DNA from: Candidatus Fermentibacterota bacterium
GTDB taxonomy: Bacteria; Fermentibacterota; Fermentibacteria; Fermentibacterales; JCC-6
Direction: 5' to 3'
Assembly (NCBI GenBank): GCA_029571005.1
Contig: JAKPTG010000071.1
Location: 1 to 34,668 of the forward strand
Length of the DNA stretch: 34,668 nucleotides
Shown here: positions 23,034 to 30,920 of the stretch, piece after piece
How positions within the stretch are numbered: position 1 is the stretch's first letter
Layout of the letters: the number at the start of each line of letters is the position of its first letter
Notes under the pieces: model-generated
The model's database searches: none
Told to the model about the DNA's origin: nothing
What the model saw: the letters and a program-made list of their open reading frames with translations, nothing else
Made by a program: the position numbers and the translations under genes

Positions 23034-23669
23034 ATGAAGTCAGAGATTCCGCCGAACACCGTGGCAAGGCTGAGCCTTTACAGAAGGCTGCTGGAAGCGT
23101 GGCTGGAAAAGGGGACCACCCACCTCTACTCCCATGAGATAGCCTCCATGGCCTGCGTCACTCCCGCCCAGGTCCGCAGGGACCTGATGGCGATAGGCTA
23201 CAGTGGGAGCCCCAGCCGGGGCTACTCGGTGGATGCCCTGGAGGACAGTATAGGCCGTTTCCTGGGCAGCGACACCGTCAGGAAAATCGCGCTGGTGGGC
23301 ATGGGCAACCTGGGGAGGGCCCTCGCCACGTACTTCGTTTCCAGAGCGCCAAGGTTCAGGATGACGGCGGCTTTCGACAACGACCCCCGAAAGACCGGCA
23401 GGGTGATAGCCGGTTGCATGGTTCATCCGGTGGAAGCCATACCCGGGATCATTCCGGCGGAGGGCATAAGGACGGCCGTCCTCGCCCTTCCCCCGGAGAG
23501 CGCCCAGGAAATGGCCGACACCCTGGTAAAGGCAGGAGTGAAAGGAATACTTAATTTCGCCCCGGTGCCCTTGAGGCTTCCGGGAGATGTTTTCCTCGAA
23601 AACCGGGATGTGACCGCCTCCTTGGAGAAGGTGGCGTTCTTTTCCGGACAGCCCCGGGAGGGTAACTGA
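23034..23669 (+). CDS. rex: Redox-sensing transcriptional repressor Rex
   Basis: Winged-helix ARLSLYRRLLEAWLEKG...YSHEIASMACVTPAQVRRDLMAIGYSG and Rossmann VGMGNLGRALATYF. Confidence 0.95.
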   Translation: MKSEIPPNTVARLSLYRRLLEAWLEKGTTHLYSHEIASMACVTPAQVRRDLMAIGYSGSPSRGYSVDALEDSIGRFLGSDTVRKIALVGMGNLGRALATYFVSRAPRFRMTAAFDNDPRKTGRVIAGCMVHPVEAIPGIIPAEGIRTAVLALPPESAQEMADTLVKAGVKGILNFAPVPLRLPGDVFLENRDVTASLEKVAFFSGQPREGN

Positions 23670-23672
23670 TCC

Positions 23673-24149
23673 ATGGGCTCGACAAAAATTCTCAAAGTTC
23701 TCGAGAGGTATCCAGGTGTCGGGAAGGATAAACTGATTCCAATCCTGCAGGAAGTGCAGGAGGCCGAGGGGTTCCTGGGCAGGGAAGCGGTGATCCTCAT
23801 CGGAAAGCATCTCGACGTTCCGGCCAGCAAGATCTACGGTGTCGCGACATTCTACAACCAGTTCCGGTTCGAACCCGTGGGCAGGTTCCACATACAGATC
23901 TGCCGGGGAACCGCCTGCCATGTGAAGGGTTCGGCGAAGCTCCTTGAGACCCTGAAGCGGGAGCTGGGTGTTGAGCCGGGCAGGACCACCAGGGACGGCA
24001 TGTTCAGCATCGAGGTGGTGGCCTGCATCGGGGCCTGCGGCCTTGCCCCGGCGATTTCCATCAACGGCGAGTTCCACGCCAGGGTCACCCCCGAGGAGAT
24101 TCCCGTGATTCTGGGAAACTGCCGGAAGTCCGCTCAGGAGGTGAGCTGA
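23673..24149 (+). CDS. hydC: NAD-linked [FeFe]-hydrogenase subunit HydC (NuoE-like thioredoxin-fold [2Fe-2S])
   Basis: YGVATFYNQFRFEPVGRFHIQICRGTACHVKGS and CIGACGLAPAI cysteine motifs. Confidence 0.93.
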   Translation: MGSTKILKVLERYPGVGKDKLIPILQEVQEAEGFLGREAVILIGKHLDVPASKIYGVATFYNQFRFEPVGRFHIQICRGTACHVKGSAKLLETLKRELGVEPGRTTRDGMFSIEVVACIGACGLAPAISINGEFHARVTPEEIPVILGNCRKSAQEVS

Positions 24150-26140
24150 TGCCCTCGATAAAGTTCCGCTGCTGTGACAAGTGCACCGATTCCAAGGACA
24201 CGCCCTGCGCCAAGAGCGTGGAGTGCCTCACCGAAGGCCCGCTCTGTCATGAGGACCAGGCTTGCCGGGACAAGAGACTCGGGTGGAAGGAATCGGTGGC
24301 GAGGAAGAATACGAACACACCCATAATCTTCATCGGGGCCGGCACCTGCGGTCTCGGCGCCGGGGCCGGCGCCACCATCGGGGCGATCCGCGAGTATCTG
24401 AAGGCCAAGTCAATCGAGTGCACCCTGGTGGAGGTCGGCTGCATCGGTCTTTGCGCCGTGGAGCCCATAGTGGACATCAAGCTGCCGGGGAAGAACAGAA
24501 TATCCTTCCACGGCGTGACCCATGACCGGGTGGGAGTGCTCCTGGAAAGCATGCTGCACGACGGAAAGGCCCCGGAAAACATGGCGCTGATGCAGTTCCC
24601 CGGGGAGGAGAAGGCCTGGGAGGGGGTGCCTGGAATCGGCGAGCACCCGTTCTTCGCTTCTCAGACCAGAAGGGTGCTGGAAAGCTGCGGAGTGATGGAC
24701 CCGGAGAGCCTGGAAGAGTACATGGCCGGCGGCGGGTACCGGGCCTTTGCCCGGGCCCTGCGGACCATGACCCCGGAACAGGTCTGCGATACGGTCGAGA
24801 GCAGCGGCCTTCGGGGCAGGGGAGGCGCCGGGTTCTCCACGGGAAAGAAGTGGCGTTTTGCCCTGAACACTCCCTCCAGCGTGAAGTACGTGATCTGCAA
24901 CGCCGACGAGGGCGACCCCGGTGCGTTCATGGACAGGGCCGTCATCGAGGGCGACCCCCACAGGCTCATAGAGGGTATCGCCACGGCGGCCTACGCAGTG
25001 GGGGCGAACCACGCCTACATCTACATCAGGGCCGAGTATCCCCTGGCGATCAAGAGGCTCAGGAACGCCCTGCAGCAGGCCGAGGCGGCGGGCCTTCTCG
25101 GAACGAACATACTGGACAGCGGCTTCGATCTGCACGTGACCATCAAGACTGGCGCCGGAGCCTTCGTGTGCGGCGAGGAAACGGCCCTTATCAAAAGCGT
25201 AGAGGGGCAGAGGGGGATGCCTTCACCCAGACCGCCCTTCCCCGCCGTCAGCGGCCTGTTCGGCAAGCCCACGATAATCAACAACGTGGAAACCTTCGCC
25301 AACGTGTCCGGAATCATCGATCGGGGACCGGAATGGTTCCGCTCCAAGGGCACCGAGGGAAGCCCGGGCACCAAGGTGTTCGCCCTTTCGGGAAAGATCA
25401 CCAACACCGGGCTTATCGAGGTCGCCATGGGGACCAGCCTGGATGAGATACTCTTCGGCATGGGCGGCGGCATCCCCGGAGGAAAGGCCTTTAAGGCGGT
25501 CCAGATCGGAGGGCCTTCGGGGGGCTGCATACCCGCGGGTCATACCGACCTCCGGATAGACTACGAGTCCCTGTTGTCCTTCGGCGCCATGATGGGCTCC
25601 GGAGGTCTGGTGGTGATGGATGAGGACACCTGCATGGTGGACGTGGCCAAGTTCTTCATGGACTTCATCCAGAGGGAAAGCTGCGGAAAGTGCATTCCCT
25701 GCCGGGAGGGGACCAAGAGGATGCTCGAAATCCTCAAGGCCATAACCAGGGGTTACCGCGACGAAACCAAGGAGCAGACCCTGGAGCGATTCCGGGGGAT
25801 AGTGACCCTGGAGAGGCTGGGGCAGACCGTCAAGAAGACGAGCCTCTGCGGCCTGGGACAGACCGCCCCGAACCCCGTGCTCAGCACTCTCCGGTGGTTC
25901 AGGAACGAGTACGAGGCCCACGTCTTCGACAGGAAGTGTCCGGCCGGGGTTTGCACCGGGCTGCTCACCTACTCCATTGATCCGGACAGTTGCCGTGGAT
26001 GCACCCTCTGTGTCCGCAAGTGCCCCTCCGGCGCCATAAAGGGTGCCCAGAAGAGCCCCCACTACATCGTTTCCCAGGAATGCGTCGGCTGCGGCGCTTG
26101 TCTGGAAGTCTGCCCCTTCGGCGCCGTCAGGGTTCAGTAA
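24149..26140 (+). CDS. hydB: NAD-linked [FeFe]-hydrogenase subunit HydB (NuoF-like flavoprotein with C-terminal 2x[4Fe-4S])
   Basis: Thioredoxin-like [2Fe-2S] segment, SGLRGRGGAGFSTGKKW, ICNADEGDPGAFMDR, GAGAFVCGEETALIKSVEG, ESCGKCIPCREG, and terminal CRGCTLCVRKCP/CVGCGACLEVCP. Confidence 0.95.
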   Translation: MPSIKFRCCDKCTDSKDTPCAKSVECLTEGPLCHEDQACRDKRLGWKESVARKNTNTPIIFIGAGTCGLGAGAGATIGAIREYLKAKSIECTLVEVGCIGLCAVEPIVDIKLPGKNRISFHGVTHDRVGVLLESMLHDGKAPENMALMQFPGEEKAWEGVPGIGEHPFFASQTRRVLESCGVMDPESLEEYMAGGGYRAFARALRTMTPEQVCDTVESSGLRGRGGAGFSTGKKWRFALNTPSSVKYVICNADEGDPGAFMDRAVIEGDPHRLIEGIATAAYAVGANHAYIYIRAEYPLAIKRLRNALQQAEAAGLLGTNILDSGFDLHVTIKTGAGAFVCGEETALIKSVEGQRGMPSPRPPFPAVSGLFGKPTIINNVETFANVSGIIDRGPEWFRSKGTEGSPGTKVFALSGKITNTGLIEVAMGTSLDEILFGMGGGIPGGKAFKAVQIGGPSGGCIPAGHTDLRIDYESLLSFGAMMGSGGLVVMDEDTCMVDVAKFFMDFIQRESCGKCIPCREGTKRMLEILKAITRGYRDETKEQTLERFRGIVTLERLGQTVKKTSLCGLGQTAPNPVLSTLRWFRNEYEAHVFDRKCPAGVCTGLLTYSIDPDSCRGCTLCVRKCPSGAIKGAQKSPHYIVSQECVGCGACLEVCPFGAVRVQ

Positions 26141-26153
26141 GGAAGGTCGCGAG

Positions 26154-27869
26154 ATGAGAATCACTCTGAACGGAAAAACCATGGAGGCCAGGGAGGGCGA
26201 GACCATCCTCTCCGCGGCGAGAAGAATGGGCTTGAATATCCCCACTCTGTGTCACATGGAGGGCCTTCCCCCGACGGGTGCCTGCCGGGTGTGTCTGGTG
26301 GAGGATGTGAAAACCGGCAGGCTGATCCCCTCCTGCTCCTTCCCGGTATCGGAGGGAATGGACATCGCCACCCACTCCAGCCAGGTGGTGGCCGCCAGGA
26401 AGACCATCATAGAACTCCTCCTGGCATCCCATCCGGACGACTGCCTGTACTGTGCGAGCAACGGAACCTGCGAACTGCAGAAGTACGCCCAGGAGCTGGG
26501 GGTGCGGCAGCGAAGCTACTCCGGCGACAGGAACCGGATTGATCTGGACATGTCCAGCCCCTCCATAATCCGTGATCCGGAGAAGTGCATCCTCTGCGGC
26601 AGATGCGTGAGAGTCTGCTCCGAGGTGCAGGGAGTCAGCGCCATTGACTTCGCCGGCCGGGGAAGCAACGCCCAGGTGAGTTGCGCCTTCGACGAAGGGC
26701 TCAACGTGTCCAGCTGTGTGAACTGCGGTCAGTGCGTGATGGTTTGCCCCACCGGGGCCCTCACGGAACGCCGGGACGTGGACCGGGTGCTCGCCGCCCT
26801 GGACGACCCCAAAAAGACCGTTGTTGTTCAGCATGCTCCGGCGGTGTCGGTCTCCCTGGCCGAGGAATTCGGCATCAAGCCCGGAAGCGACGTGGTGGAC
26901 AAGATGAACGCCGCCTTCCGGCGAATGGGCTTCGACAAGATTTTCCCCACCAGCTTCAGCGCAGACCTTACGGTCATGGAGGAGGCCCATGAACTGGTGG
27001 AGAGAGTCAAGAAGGGCGGCCCGTTCCCCATGTTCACAAGCTGCTCGCCGGGCTGGATCAAGTACCTCGAGGAGTTCCACCCGGACCTGCTGGGCAACGT
27101 TTCCACGTGCAAGAGCCCTCAGCAGATGATGGGAGCGGTGGTCAAGAGGCTCTGGGCCCCGGCCCAGGGGCTGGAAAGCGGACAGGTGTTCAATGTCTCG
27201 GTGATGCCGTGCACCGCCAAGAAGTTCGAGGCCGCAAGGCCGGAAATGGGCGGGGAGGTGCCGGATGTTGACGCCGTTATAACCACCCGGGAGCTGGCCG
27301 AGATGATCCGGATGTTCGGCATAGACATCACCTCGCTGGAAGGTGAGCAGGCGGACAGCCCCTTCGGGGACCGCAGCTCCGCCGGAAAGCTCTTCGGGGC
27401 CACCGGCGGCGTCATGGAGGCGGCGGCCAGAACCGCTTACCACATGATCACCGGCAAGGAGCTTCCCGAGCTGAAGATAGACGCCGTGCGCGGGCTGCAG
27501 GATGTGAAGGAGGCCGTCGTCAACATAGACGGGCTGGAGCTGAAGCTGGCGGTGGTCAGCGGCCTTGGGAACGCCGGGCGGCTTCTGAAGGACATCATTG
27601 ATGGCAAGAGGACCTACCACTTCGTAGAGGTCATGACCTGCCGGGGTGGATGCATCAGCGGAGGGGGCCAGCCCCTCGTCACGAACCCCGAGCGGGTGAA
27701 GGCCAGGATGCAGGTGCTCTACGAGATAGACCGGGACGCAAGCCTGCGGGTATCCCATGAGAACCCTTCCATAAAGGCCTTGTACAGGGATTTCCTGAAG
27801 GAGCCCGGCAGCCACAAATCCCACGAACTCCTGCACACCGAGTACTCCCCGCGGGAGGTACTCAAGTAG
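26154..27869 (+). CDS. hydA: [FeFe]-hydrogenase catalytic subunit HydA
   Basis: N-terminal [2Fe-2S], HPDDCLYCASNGTCELQ, CILCGRCVRVC, CVNCGQCVMVCPTGAL; H-cluster motifs TSCSPGW, MPCTAKK, EVMTCRGGCISGGGQP. Start ATG 26154 (ORF track start 26043 lies inside hydB). Confidence 0.95.
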   Translation: MRITLNGKTMEAREGETILSAARRMGLNIPTLCHMEGLPPTGACRVCLVEDVKTGRLIPSCSFPVSEGMDIATHSSQVVAARKTIIELLLASHPDDCLYCASNGTCELQKYAQELGVRQRSYSGDRNRIDLDMSSPSIIRDPEKCILCGRCVRVCSEVQGVSAIDFAGRGSNAQVSCAFDEGLNVSSCVNCGQCVMVCPTGALTERRDVDRVLAALDDPKKTVVVQHAPAVSVSLAEEFGIKPGSDVVDKMNAAFRRMGFDKIFPTSFSADLTVMEEAHELVERVKKGGPFPMFTSCSPGWIKYLEEFHPDLLGNVSTCKSPQQMMGAVVKRLWAPAQGLESGQVFNVSVMPCTAKKFEAARPEMGGEVPDVDAVITTRELAEMIRMFGIDITSLEGEQADSPFGDRSSAGKLFGATGGVMEAAARTAYHMITGKELPELKIDAVRGLQDVKEAVVNIDGLELKLAVVSGLGNAGRLLKDIIDGKRTYHFVEVMTCRGGCISGGGQPLVTNPERVKARMQVLYEIDRDASLRVSHENPSIKALYRDFLKEPGSHKSHELLHTEYSPREVLK

Positions 27870-28396
27870 ATGGCCGAGTGCCTCGAGCCCCTGGTGCGGA
27901 CCGTTCCCGGGAAGGGCAAGGTGCGTTGCACCTGCGTGAGGGAATGTCCCGCCGAAGCCATCCGTACCCTGGAGGGCCGGGCGGAGGTTGTCACCGAAAG
28001 GTGCATAGCCTGCGGAAACCGCGTTAGAGTCTGTACCAGGGGCGCCGAAAAGGCACGGGTCAATGTCTCCGATGTGAAGAATCTTCCTGCGTCGGGCCGC
28101 AGGGTGGCGGCCGTCGTTGCCCCCGGCCGCTCCGGCGGAGTTTCCAGGAATTTCTTCCCGCAAGTTCGTGGGAATGATGAACGGGCTGAGTATGAAGGTT
28201 TCCGATACCGGAACCGGAATCGGCCCGGAAAACATGAAGAAGCTGTTCGAGCCGTTTTTCACCATCAAGCCCGGGGGAAAGGGACCGGCCCGGGGCCTGT
28301 GGTGACGTACGGCATTGTGAAAATGCACAGAGGCGTAACCGCGGTTTCAAACCCGACCCGGTGAAGGGGCCTGCGGGCACTACCTTCACGGTGTGA
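27870..28396 (+). pseudogene. Remnant of an Fe-S-domain sensor histidine kinase (N-terminal ferredoxin-like part + C-terminal HATPase part, centre deleted, frameshifted)
   Basis: Frame A: CTCVRECPAEAIRTLEGRAEVVTERCIACGNRVRVC...RRVAAVVAP; shifted frame: AAPAEFPGISSRKFVGMM then VSDTGTGIGPENMKKLFEPFFTIKPGGKG; back to frame A: TGPGPVVTYGIVKMHRG...SNPTR*; then GPAGTTFTV* in another frame. Confidence 0.75.
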
Positions 28397-28437
28397 CCCG
28401 CCCCGGAGGGTGAGCGAGGATGGAGGAAGGAACTCCA

Positions 28438-28824
28438 ATGAAGGATCACCTGACAGTACTTCTGGTGGATGATGACCAGGACTTCCTGGAACAAACTGAA
28501 ATAATGCTGAAAAACGCCGGGCACCGGGTTCTGCCCGCTACGGGAAGGGCTCGGGCCGAGGAAATCCTGGAGGAGACCCGGCCGGACATTGCGCTGGTGG
28601 ACCTGATTATGGATCGGGGCGACGACGGTTTCGTGCTCGCCCACCGGATCAAGGGTAAGTACCCGGAAGTCCCGGTGATCATAATCACCGCCGCAGCCAG
28701 CAAAACCGGGATAGACTTCGCCTCGCTCCCGGATACCGGGGGGTGGATAAAGGCGGATGCCATGCTTCAGAAGCCCGTCAGGTTCGAACAGTTGGAAACG
28801 CAGATAAAAAGACTGTGTGGGTGA
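28438..28824 (+). CDS. Receiver-domain-only response regulator
   Basis: ATG 28438 with GGAGGAAGGAA upstream; LLVDDDQDF, PDIALVDLIM (phospho-acceptor Asp), VIIITA, MLQKPV (conserved Lys). Confidence 0.9.
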   Translation: MKDHLTVLLVDDDQDFLEQTEIMLKNAGHRVLPATGRARAEEILEETRPDIALVDLIMDRGDDGFVLAHRIKGKYPEVPVIIITAAASKTGIDFASLPDTGGWIKADAMLQKPVRFEQLETQIKRLCG

Positions 28825-29030
28825 CGAAACCGTCCTGAAGCTCCTGGTGGTGGGTGACTAAGCGGGGATGCGCATGGGTTATCCGCAGTCCCCGCGGGGG
28901 CTCACCGCGGAGCCGGACGGTGCCGGGCGGGTCGTGAGGCTTTCGGCGGACGAGGCGGAAAGCGGGATCCCCGCCGAAAAACTCCGCATAGTAATCCACG
29001 CCGCCGTAAAACCGTGAATATCGTTGGATG

Positions 29031-29062: not shown

Positions 29063-29896
29063 TCAGGTCAGGGCCTTTATGCAGCCGATGTTCCTGGCCT
29101 GAAGCTTGCCTGGTTCGATGCCGTCGGATATCTGGAACTCAAAGACCAGGTTTCTGTCGGGCAGACGAAAATAGTCAACGTTGTCAGGCAGGTTCGAGTC
29201 GTGGAAGAAAATGTTGGCGTAGGGCGAAAGGGGATCCCGGTTGTCTATCCTCCAGAGTTCGTCGTTGGTCTTCACCATGTAGCGGAAGAAACCGAACCCC
29301 TTGTCGTGGCTGACGCACATGCCCCTGACCCAGGAGTTCACCTCCCCCCATGTGCCGGGATCGTCCAGCCCCTTGAACGGGAGCAGGTTGGGGATGAGGT
29401 ATCCCGATACGAAGAGGTCCGCCTCCCGCCGCAGTTCATGGGCTATGTTGTCGAAGGCCGTGACCTCCACCCGGCACCCCCGGCTCTGCAGGGCGTGGAC
29501 CACCCTGACGAAATCGCCGTCGCCGCTGGCCAGGAGAACACGATCGAGCCTTTCCGACTGGAGTATCGCGTCTATTCCCATTTCCAGGTCAACGTTCGAC
29601 TTGGCGTACCTGTTGCCTGAATCGTCGCTGTACCATTTAACCGTCTTGGGGATGACCTTGTAGCCGATATCCCGCAGGGCGGTGTGAAACCGGTTCTGAC
29701 CGTCCTTGTACTCCCGGTCCGTGCGGGCTCTGACTTCATCGAAGCTGACGTAGGCGTTCAGGCGCACGGGGAACCCTCCCCCCCGGCAGGCGAACTGCCG
29801 GAGCACCTCGTAACGCATGCCGAATCCGCCGTTCATGGTGAGATTGCTCACGTCAACGTAAACGCCGACCTTGTTTCCATTGCTCTGCGAAGACAT
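29063..29896 (-). CDS. NYN (LabA/DUF88-like) domain protein with C-terminal cold-shock-like domain
   Basis: VGVYVDVSNLTMNGG, KSNVDLEMGIDAIL, RVLLASGDGDFVRVVHALQSRGCRVEV (NYN); KGFGFFRY...NIFFHDSNL...VFEFQISDGIEPGKLQARNI (CSD-like). Confidence 0.88.
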   Translation of the reverse strand: MSSQSNGNKVGVYVDVSNLTMNGGFGMRYEVLRQFACRGGGFPVRLNAYVSFDEVRARTDREYKDGQNRFHTALRDIGYKVIPKTVKWYSDDSGNRYAKSNVDLEMGIDAILQSERLDRVLLASGDGDFVRVVHALQSRGCRVEVTAFDNIAHELRREADLFVSGYLIPNLLPFKGLDDPGTWGEVNSWVRGMCVSHDKGFGFFRYMVKTNDELWRIDNRDPLSPYANIFFHDSNLPDNVDYFRLPDRNLVFEFQISDGIEPGKLQARNIGCIKALT

Positions 29897-29955
29897 TGTC
29901 CCCTCCACAAGAAGTGCCGTGGGAAAGCAAACAGCATCGTAAAAGGATTATACTC

Positions 29956-30832: not shown

Positions 30833-30920
30833 GCCGGGGTGGTGGAATTGGCAGACACGCTAGGCTAAGGACCTAGTGGGCGAATAGCCTGTGCGGGTTC
30901 AAGTCCCGCCCCCGGTACCA
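30833..30920 (+). tRNA. tRNA-Leu, anticodon AAG, CCA encoded
   Basis: Acceptor GCCGGGG/CCCCGGT, type II long variable arm, GGTTCAAGTCC T-arm, anticodon stem CTAGG/CCTAG with loop C-T-A-A-G-G-A giving anticodon AAG. Confidence 0.92.

Follow-up and report, generated by a model that had tools for sequence, protein, structure and literature searches.

A small Fermentibacterota genome that has recently lost a putative two-component relay for hydrogen or redox sensing

Introduction

Hydrogenase-like proteins of groups C and D are treated as putative sensors (PMC5037454, PMC8163306, PMC10055695, PMC8924675), and among them HydDB group C1 comprises the 'histidine kinase-linked (putative)' [FeFe]-hydrogenases, for which a role in H2 sensing has been proposed (PMC5037454). 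In Hydrogenedentota the group C1 proteins contain an HATPase, 21 of 53 adjoin group A3 hydrogenases, and the P1-P3 motifs could hardly be found in them (PMC11406978). Two further relatives are HydS of Thermotoga maritima (class M2f), which carries a PAS domain, and HydS of Thermoanaerobacter mathranii (class M2e, group D), which has neither a PAS domain nor a fused kinase; both possess a hydrogenase-like domain (H-domain) with a Cx2Cx4Cx16C cluster motif, lack the proton-transfer Cys of group A, and are often encoded beside a group A hydrogenase (PMC10055695, PMC8163306).

Here we analyse a window of 34,668 nucleotides on contig C25 of a Candidatus Fermentibacterota genome (G000), in which a stretch of shifting reading frames lies directly behind an [FeFe]-hydrogenase gene. 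We conclude, with a probability of roughly 0.94, that positions 27870-28398 once encoded a soluble, fused sensor histidine kinase of the [FeFe]-hydrogenase-like kind (HydSK) and that this gene was inactivated recently. HydSK resembles group C1 (PMC5037454) in being a putative sensor of hydrogenase-like type with a histidine-kinase link, although in the Fermentibacterota relatives a single polypeptide carries both parts, and it resembles the two HydS proteins in its H-domain with the Cx2Cx4Cx16C cluster and in its missing proton-transfer Cys, yet differs from them in having a fused HisKA-HATPase and no PAS domain. In the window this protein has been destroyed.

Results

An intact sensor kinase and its conserved neighbours

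The comparison is with G001, the sole comparison genome of the same genus, whose locus (L052; the sensor orthologue is on contig C11) has the same neighbours. At the same place, directly after hydA and before a response regulator gene (RR), G001 has an intact gene for a protein of 672 aa (about 664-668 aa in most other homologues) with two Fer4 domains, Fe_hyd_lg_C (E 5e-42), FeS (PF04060), HisKA and HATPase_c. The earlier note on this DNA had expected an intact orthologous gene of about 1.7-2 kb, and a gene of about 2 kb is indeed what follows hydA in the relatives. The architecture it had described, a ferredoxin domain with a hydrogenase-like/PAS part and a kinase, holds for the ferredoxin, H-domain and kinase but not for PAS: the PAS domain characteristic of M2f HydS is absent from the HydSK proteins of G001, L073, L092 and L128. 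In the G001 H-domain C142, C190, C291/292 and C295 are invariant in homologues, as are the four Cys of the Cx2Cx4Cx16C cluster (C379-C382-C387-C404). Residues 142, 190 and 291-295 of the G001 protein and its homologues lie in variant H-cluster-type motifs (CPA, GPCxAKK and LCCxGCIMGPG). Hydrogenedentota loci were recovered in our scan for the HydSK family and share the HATPase, and these variant motifs, with their invariant Cys in the intact Fermentibacterota homologues, may be the reason why the published survey hardly found P1-P3 in the Hydrogenedentota group C1 proteins (PMC11406978).

The G001 sensor gene is followed by genes for a receiver protein of 137 aa and a REC-HisKA-HATPase protein of 386 aa (RRHK). 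The order HydA-HydSK-RR-RRHK recurs in nine other genomes of the family or order (in G026 as far as a contig end permits), and an RRHK orthologue is present in 12 of 42 genomes of the order, all of which except G024 also have HydSK. In a set of 80 named loci drawn from many phyla, RRHK lies downstream in 63 of the 66 with enough sequence and RR in 46 of 66, with HydA upstream in 55 of 68. The module is found (L073-L152) in Phycisphaerae, Hydrogenedentota, Bacteroidales, Myxococcota, Marinimicrobia and others. This recurrence suggests a widespread H2 signalling relay, of which, as a unit, we found no description.

The window retains the two ends of the sensor gene

In the window, a 164-aa open reading frame (27870-28364) begins at the base directly 3' of the hydA stop codon. 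It contains the ferredoxin-like peptides quoted in the earlier note, whose remaining peptides are found in the two other frames; all are present as stated, and they are not chance resemblances, since tblastn aligns them to the intact G001 kinase. Pfam shows almost nothing in this ORF (a single sub-threshold Fe-S match), and the case for a pseudogene thus rests on comparison. With the G001 kinase as query, residues 1-85 match in frame 3 (73% identity, E 9e-31), residues 77-106 in frame 1 and residues 575-614 in frame 1 (75%, E 2e-12), the tail being recovered through other frames. DNA alignment to G001 and the Cys columns together place the 5' remnant (residues 1-106) at 27870-28181 on the forward strand, as are all genes and remnants given below; it comprises the two-cluster ferredoxin domain and, past a one-base gain near 28127, about 28 residues from the beginning of the hydrogenase-like domain. 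The segment AVVAP/AAPAEFPGISSRKFVGMM, which had been counted with the ferredoxin-bearing N-terminal part, is present but marks where the hydrogenase-like domain begins. The 3' remnant (28189-28398) covers the G1/F/G2-box region of the ATPase and has stop codons in two frames, at 28362-28364 and 28396-28398. Residues 1-106 and those from about 575 onward are therefore what the window copy retains. That an intact homologue occupies the syntenic place, combined with the disabling lesions below, bears out the proposal of a decayed redox-sensor histidine kinase. The description of this remnant as fused to the 3' end of the hydrogenase operon needs adjusting: it does lie directly after hydA, but as a separate gene within a cluster that runs from Rex to RRHK. 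No second HydSK copy was found elsewhere in G000 (bin 92.6% complete).

Lesions in the sensor gene

Genome comparison showed the region matched by G001 as two blocks with ~1.4 kb of G001 unmatched between them. Collinear blastn blocks end at window position 28182 (7701 of the reverse complement of L052) and resume at 28189 (9121), placing the junction (28182-28189, unstranded) of an in-frame deletion of 1,413 bp that takes out roughly residues 107-574 in the numbering of the full-length protein. With it went nearly the whole H-domain, the Cx2Cx4Cx16C cluster, HisKA with its phospho-accepting His (H444) and that half of the ATPase which holds the N-box, leaving the G1/F-box region. In G001 the 5-bp sequence AACAA occurs at both deletion ends, which would be compatible with an origin by short-repeat deletion. 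Block-wise DNA alignment against G001, from which all lesion positions are taken, further located the one-base gain near 28127 in the 5' remnant and showed that the 3' remnant has lost single bases near 28284 and 28353 and three bases near 28332. Three frame-changing indels thus flank the deletion, in line with the large internal deletion and two or three frameshifts that had been proposed. Loss of Cys ligands had also been claimed, with Arg at a third expected position; that change (C51->R) is real, but the count is higher, as C16->G and C19->R are also present and only five of eight ferredoxin Cys are left, all eight being invariant across 11 homologues. None of the hallmarks of a functional HydSK is complete in the window copy, be it the eight-Cys ferredoxin motifs, the Cys of H-domain motifs L1, L2 and L3, the Cx2Cx4Cx16C cluster, or HisKA with a full HATPase.

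Could the gene be intact in the cell, and the contig mis-joined or burdened with indel errors? The source is a metagenome bin in 125 contigs, any one of the indels could by itself be a sequence error, and other bins of the order do show error-like frameshifts in HydA. However, substitutions at three invariant Cys codons are not assembly artefacts, nor are the Asp substitution and nonsense codon in RRHK described below; moreover two genes are broken while the surrounding HydA, HndC, HndA, Rex, RR and NYN genes are full length, and the excess of amino-acid change reported in the following section is restricted to the sensor remnant. We therefore consider such an error very unlikely. The error-like cases themselves are HydA of G040 (L060 6369-8353), which is in two frames, and HydA of G028 (reverse complement of L061, 5838-7551), which is in three, both without a large deletion; in contrast to the window, these split genes look like sequence error.

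Selection on the remnant

Pairwise dN/dS against G001 is 0.07 for Rex, 0.09 for HndA, 0.12 for HndC and 0.07 for HydA, with RR at 0.27 the highest of the intact genes. The N-terminal sensor remnant still gives 0.10, so that pairwise values alone do not prove decay. A relative-rate test polarised by outgroups speaks more clearly, as residues 1-85 carry 15 changes unique to the window against 1 unique to G001 (p=0.0005), showing relaxed constraint on the window lineage. No significant skew was seen in HydA (27:20), HndC (33:25), Rex (9:2, p=0.07) or RR (14:8, p=0.29), and the C-terminal sensor remnant (28 codons; 3:1) has no clear excess, being too short to tell. A skew of 15:1 together with a low pairwise dN/dS fits a young pseudogene, and in this sense the word 'recently' in the earlier note was apt; dS is near or above 1 throughout.

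These data also bear on the alternative that the 164-aa ORF has been kept for a new role, as a short working protein of ferredoxin type or as a regulator of reduced size. Its position directly after the hydA stop codon means that it is probably translated, and residues 1-85 remain 73% identical to G001. Nevertheless, three of its eight cluster ligands are lost, its tail is out of frame and its changes are accelerated. A conserved stand-alone protein of this length had been named as a finding that would overturn the pseudogene reading, and among 36 family genomes there is no short homologue; we rejected this candidate and give it almost no credence.

A second broken kinase

Decay does not stop with the sensor. 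The earlier note had ended it at 28396, which agrees with the end of the sensor remnant (28398), but damage runs on to about 28966. Alignment to G001 identifies 28817-28966 as the first 50 codons of RRHK, in which the first Asp of the acidic pair is changed to Gly, an in-frame TAA stands at 28859-28861 and two one-base indels are present. The 3' remainder (~1 kb) is missing from the window, and no intact RRHK orthologue was found elsewhere in G000. The open tail that follows (IPAEKLRIVIHAAVKP, window 28967-29014) had no convincing match in relatives. The next syntenic gene, encoding an NYN-domain protein (29063-29908), is full length. In G001 the sensor module is separated from the NYN gene by a gene for an arylsulfotransferase-like protein that carries a T9SS sorting domain (L052 4939-7032); this gene is absent in the window, and the stretch after the RRHK remnant accordingly differs for more than one reason. 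Elsewhere in the window, apparent decay at 18.2-19.5 kb was considered and rejected, as it comprises an intact GNAT acetyltransferase and an adjoining ORF.

The hydrogenase cluster is intact

The cluster has the order Rex-HndA-HndC-HydA-HydSK-RR-RRHK. Its first four genes are intact, and encode the Rex redox repressor (23034-23669; Pfam Put_DNA-bind_N and CoA_binding; 86% amino-acid identity to G001), an HndA/NuoE-like [2Fe-2S] subunit (23673-24149; Pfam 2Fe-2S_thioredx, E 2e-49), an HndC/NuoF-like subunit (24149-26140; Pfam Complex1_51K and others) and the catalytic subunit HydA of a group A6-type [FeFe] hydrogenase (26151-27869; start picked by homology, the ORF reaching upstream to 26043). 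HydA scores 814 bits against NCBIfam NF040763 (cut-off 765), is 85% identical to G001 and matches the solved HydA1 8a6t end to end. Damage suspected from its odd TSCSP motif was rejected, as the motif is common to relatives and the solved HydA1 7q4v; TCRGGC in place of TCPGGC is also seen in L038. The maturase HydG of G000 scores 521 bits in a single open frame.

RR (28420-28824; a single REC domain, Pfam Response_reg E 4e-16) lies intact between the two wrecked kinase genes. Its start is likely ATG 28438, preceded by GGAGGAAGG, and the alignment shows the acidic residues, phospho-Asp, Thr and Lys retained.

Discussion

Taken together, the G000 locus records the loss of a control system while the machine that it presumably controlled was kept, otherwise an ordinary gene-loss step. 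The domains of the intact module and its conservation lead us to infer a phosphorelay that responds to H2 or redox state, in which HydSK would read H2 or redox state via its H-domain and pass phosphate to RR and RRHK; this is the simplest reading, given that RR consists of a receiver domain alone and RRHK starts with one. In G000 a large in-frame deletion with frame and point lesions has destroyed HydSK and RRHK has lost its 3' part, with no order of events implied, while the hydrogenase and the maturase HydG are kept. The hydrogenase would now be controlled without HydSK, perhaps by Rex at the head of the same cluster, and RR may be an orphan or be served by another kinase.

That RR is well kept after losing both partners means either that the loss is recent or that RR has another role. 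Were RR taken over by another kinase, sensor loss would be rewiring and not simple decay: RR is intact with its receiver residues retained, it shows no significant acceleration on the window branch, and both its cognate kinases are gone. On the other hand its dN/dS is the highest among the intact genes, a short time since the loss would give the same picture, and no candidate kinase was identified, so that we regard a takeover as unlikely. The stronger version, in which the hydrogenase cluster would have been caught in a regulatory switch that replaced a dedicated H2 sensor by some other signal as its input, is somewhat more doubtful still. A further explanation is that the sensor became dispensable once a second hydrogenase that it regulated had been lost. 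G001 and several other module-bearing genomes do have a second, about 48%-identical hydrogenase, and G000 gave a single match; however, G005, G018 and G038 retain the sensor module, and that search showed no second hydrogenase of this kind in them. As the cause of the loss we rejected this improbable account.

The simple loss of the relay agrees with the state of the genome at large. The G000 bin amounts to 1.87 Mb (G001 2.8 Mb), and its HisKA matches number 7 where G001 has 25 and most family members have about 20, which makes the loss of signalling genes general in G000. This broad two-component loss agrees with genome reduction, though incompleteness of the bin contributes a little to the low count.

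G000 thus offers a clear natural knock-out of a putative H2 sensor, from a family to which the literature likewise assigns a putative sensing function. Within one genus, species with and without the module carry the same hydrogenase, and a comparison of its expression between them would show what the sensor does. The conservation of the HydA-HydSK-RR-REC-kinase module in many phyla is a more useful result than the pseudogene itself.

As a minor observation, a tRNA-Leu with anticodon AAG, which is uncommon in bacteria, lies at 30833-30920 of the window and is common to family members (L052 2603-2690, L056 13298-13384); in the order relative L053 the nearby tRNA-Leu has GAG.
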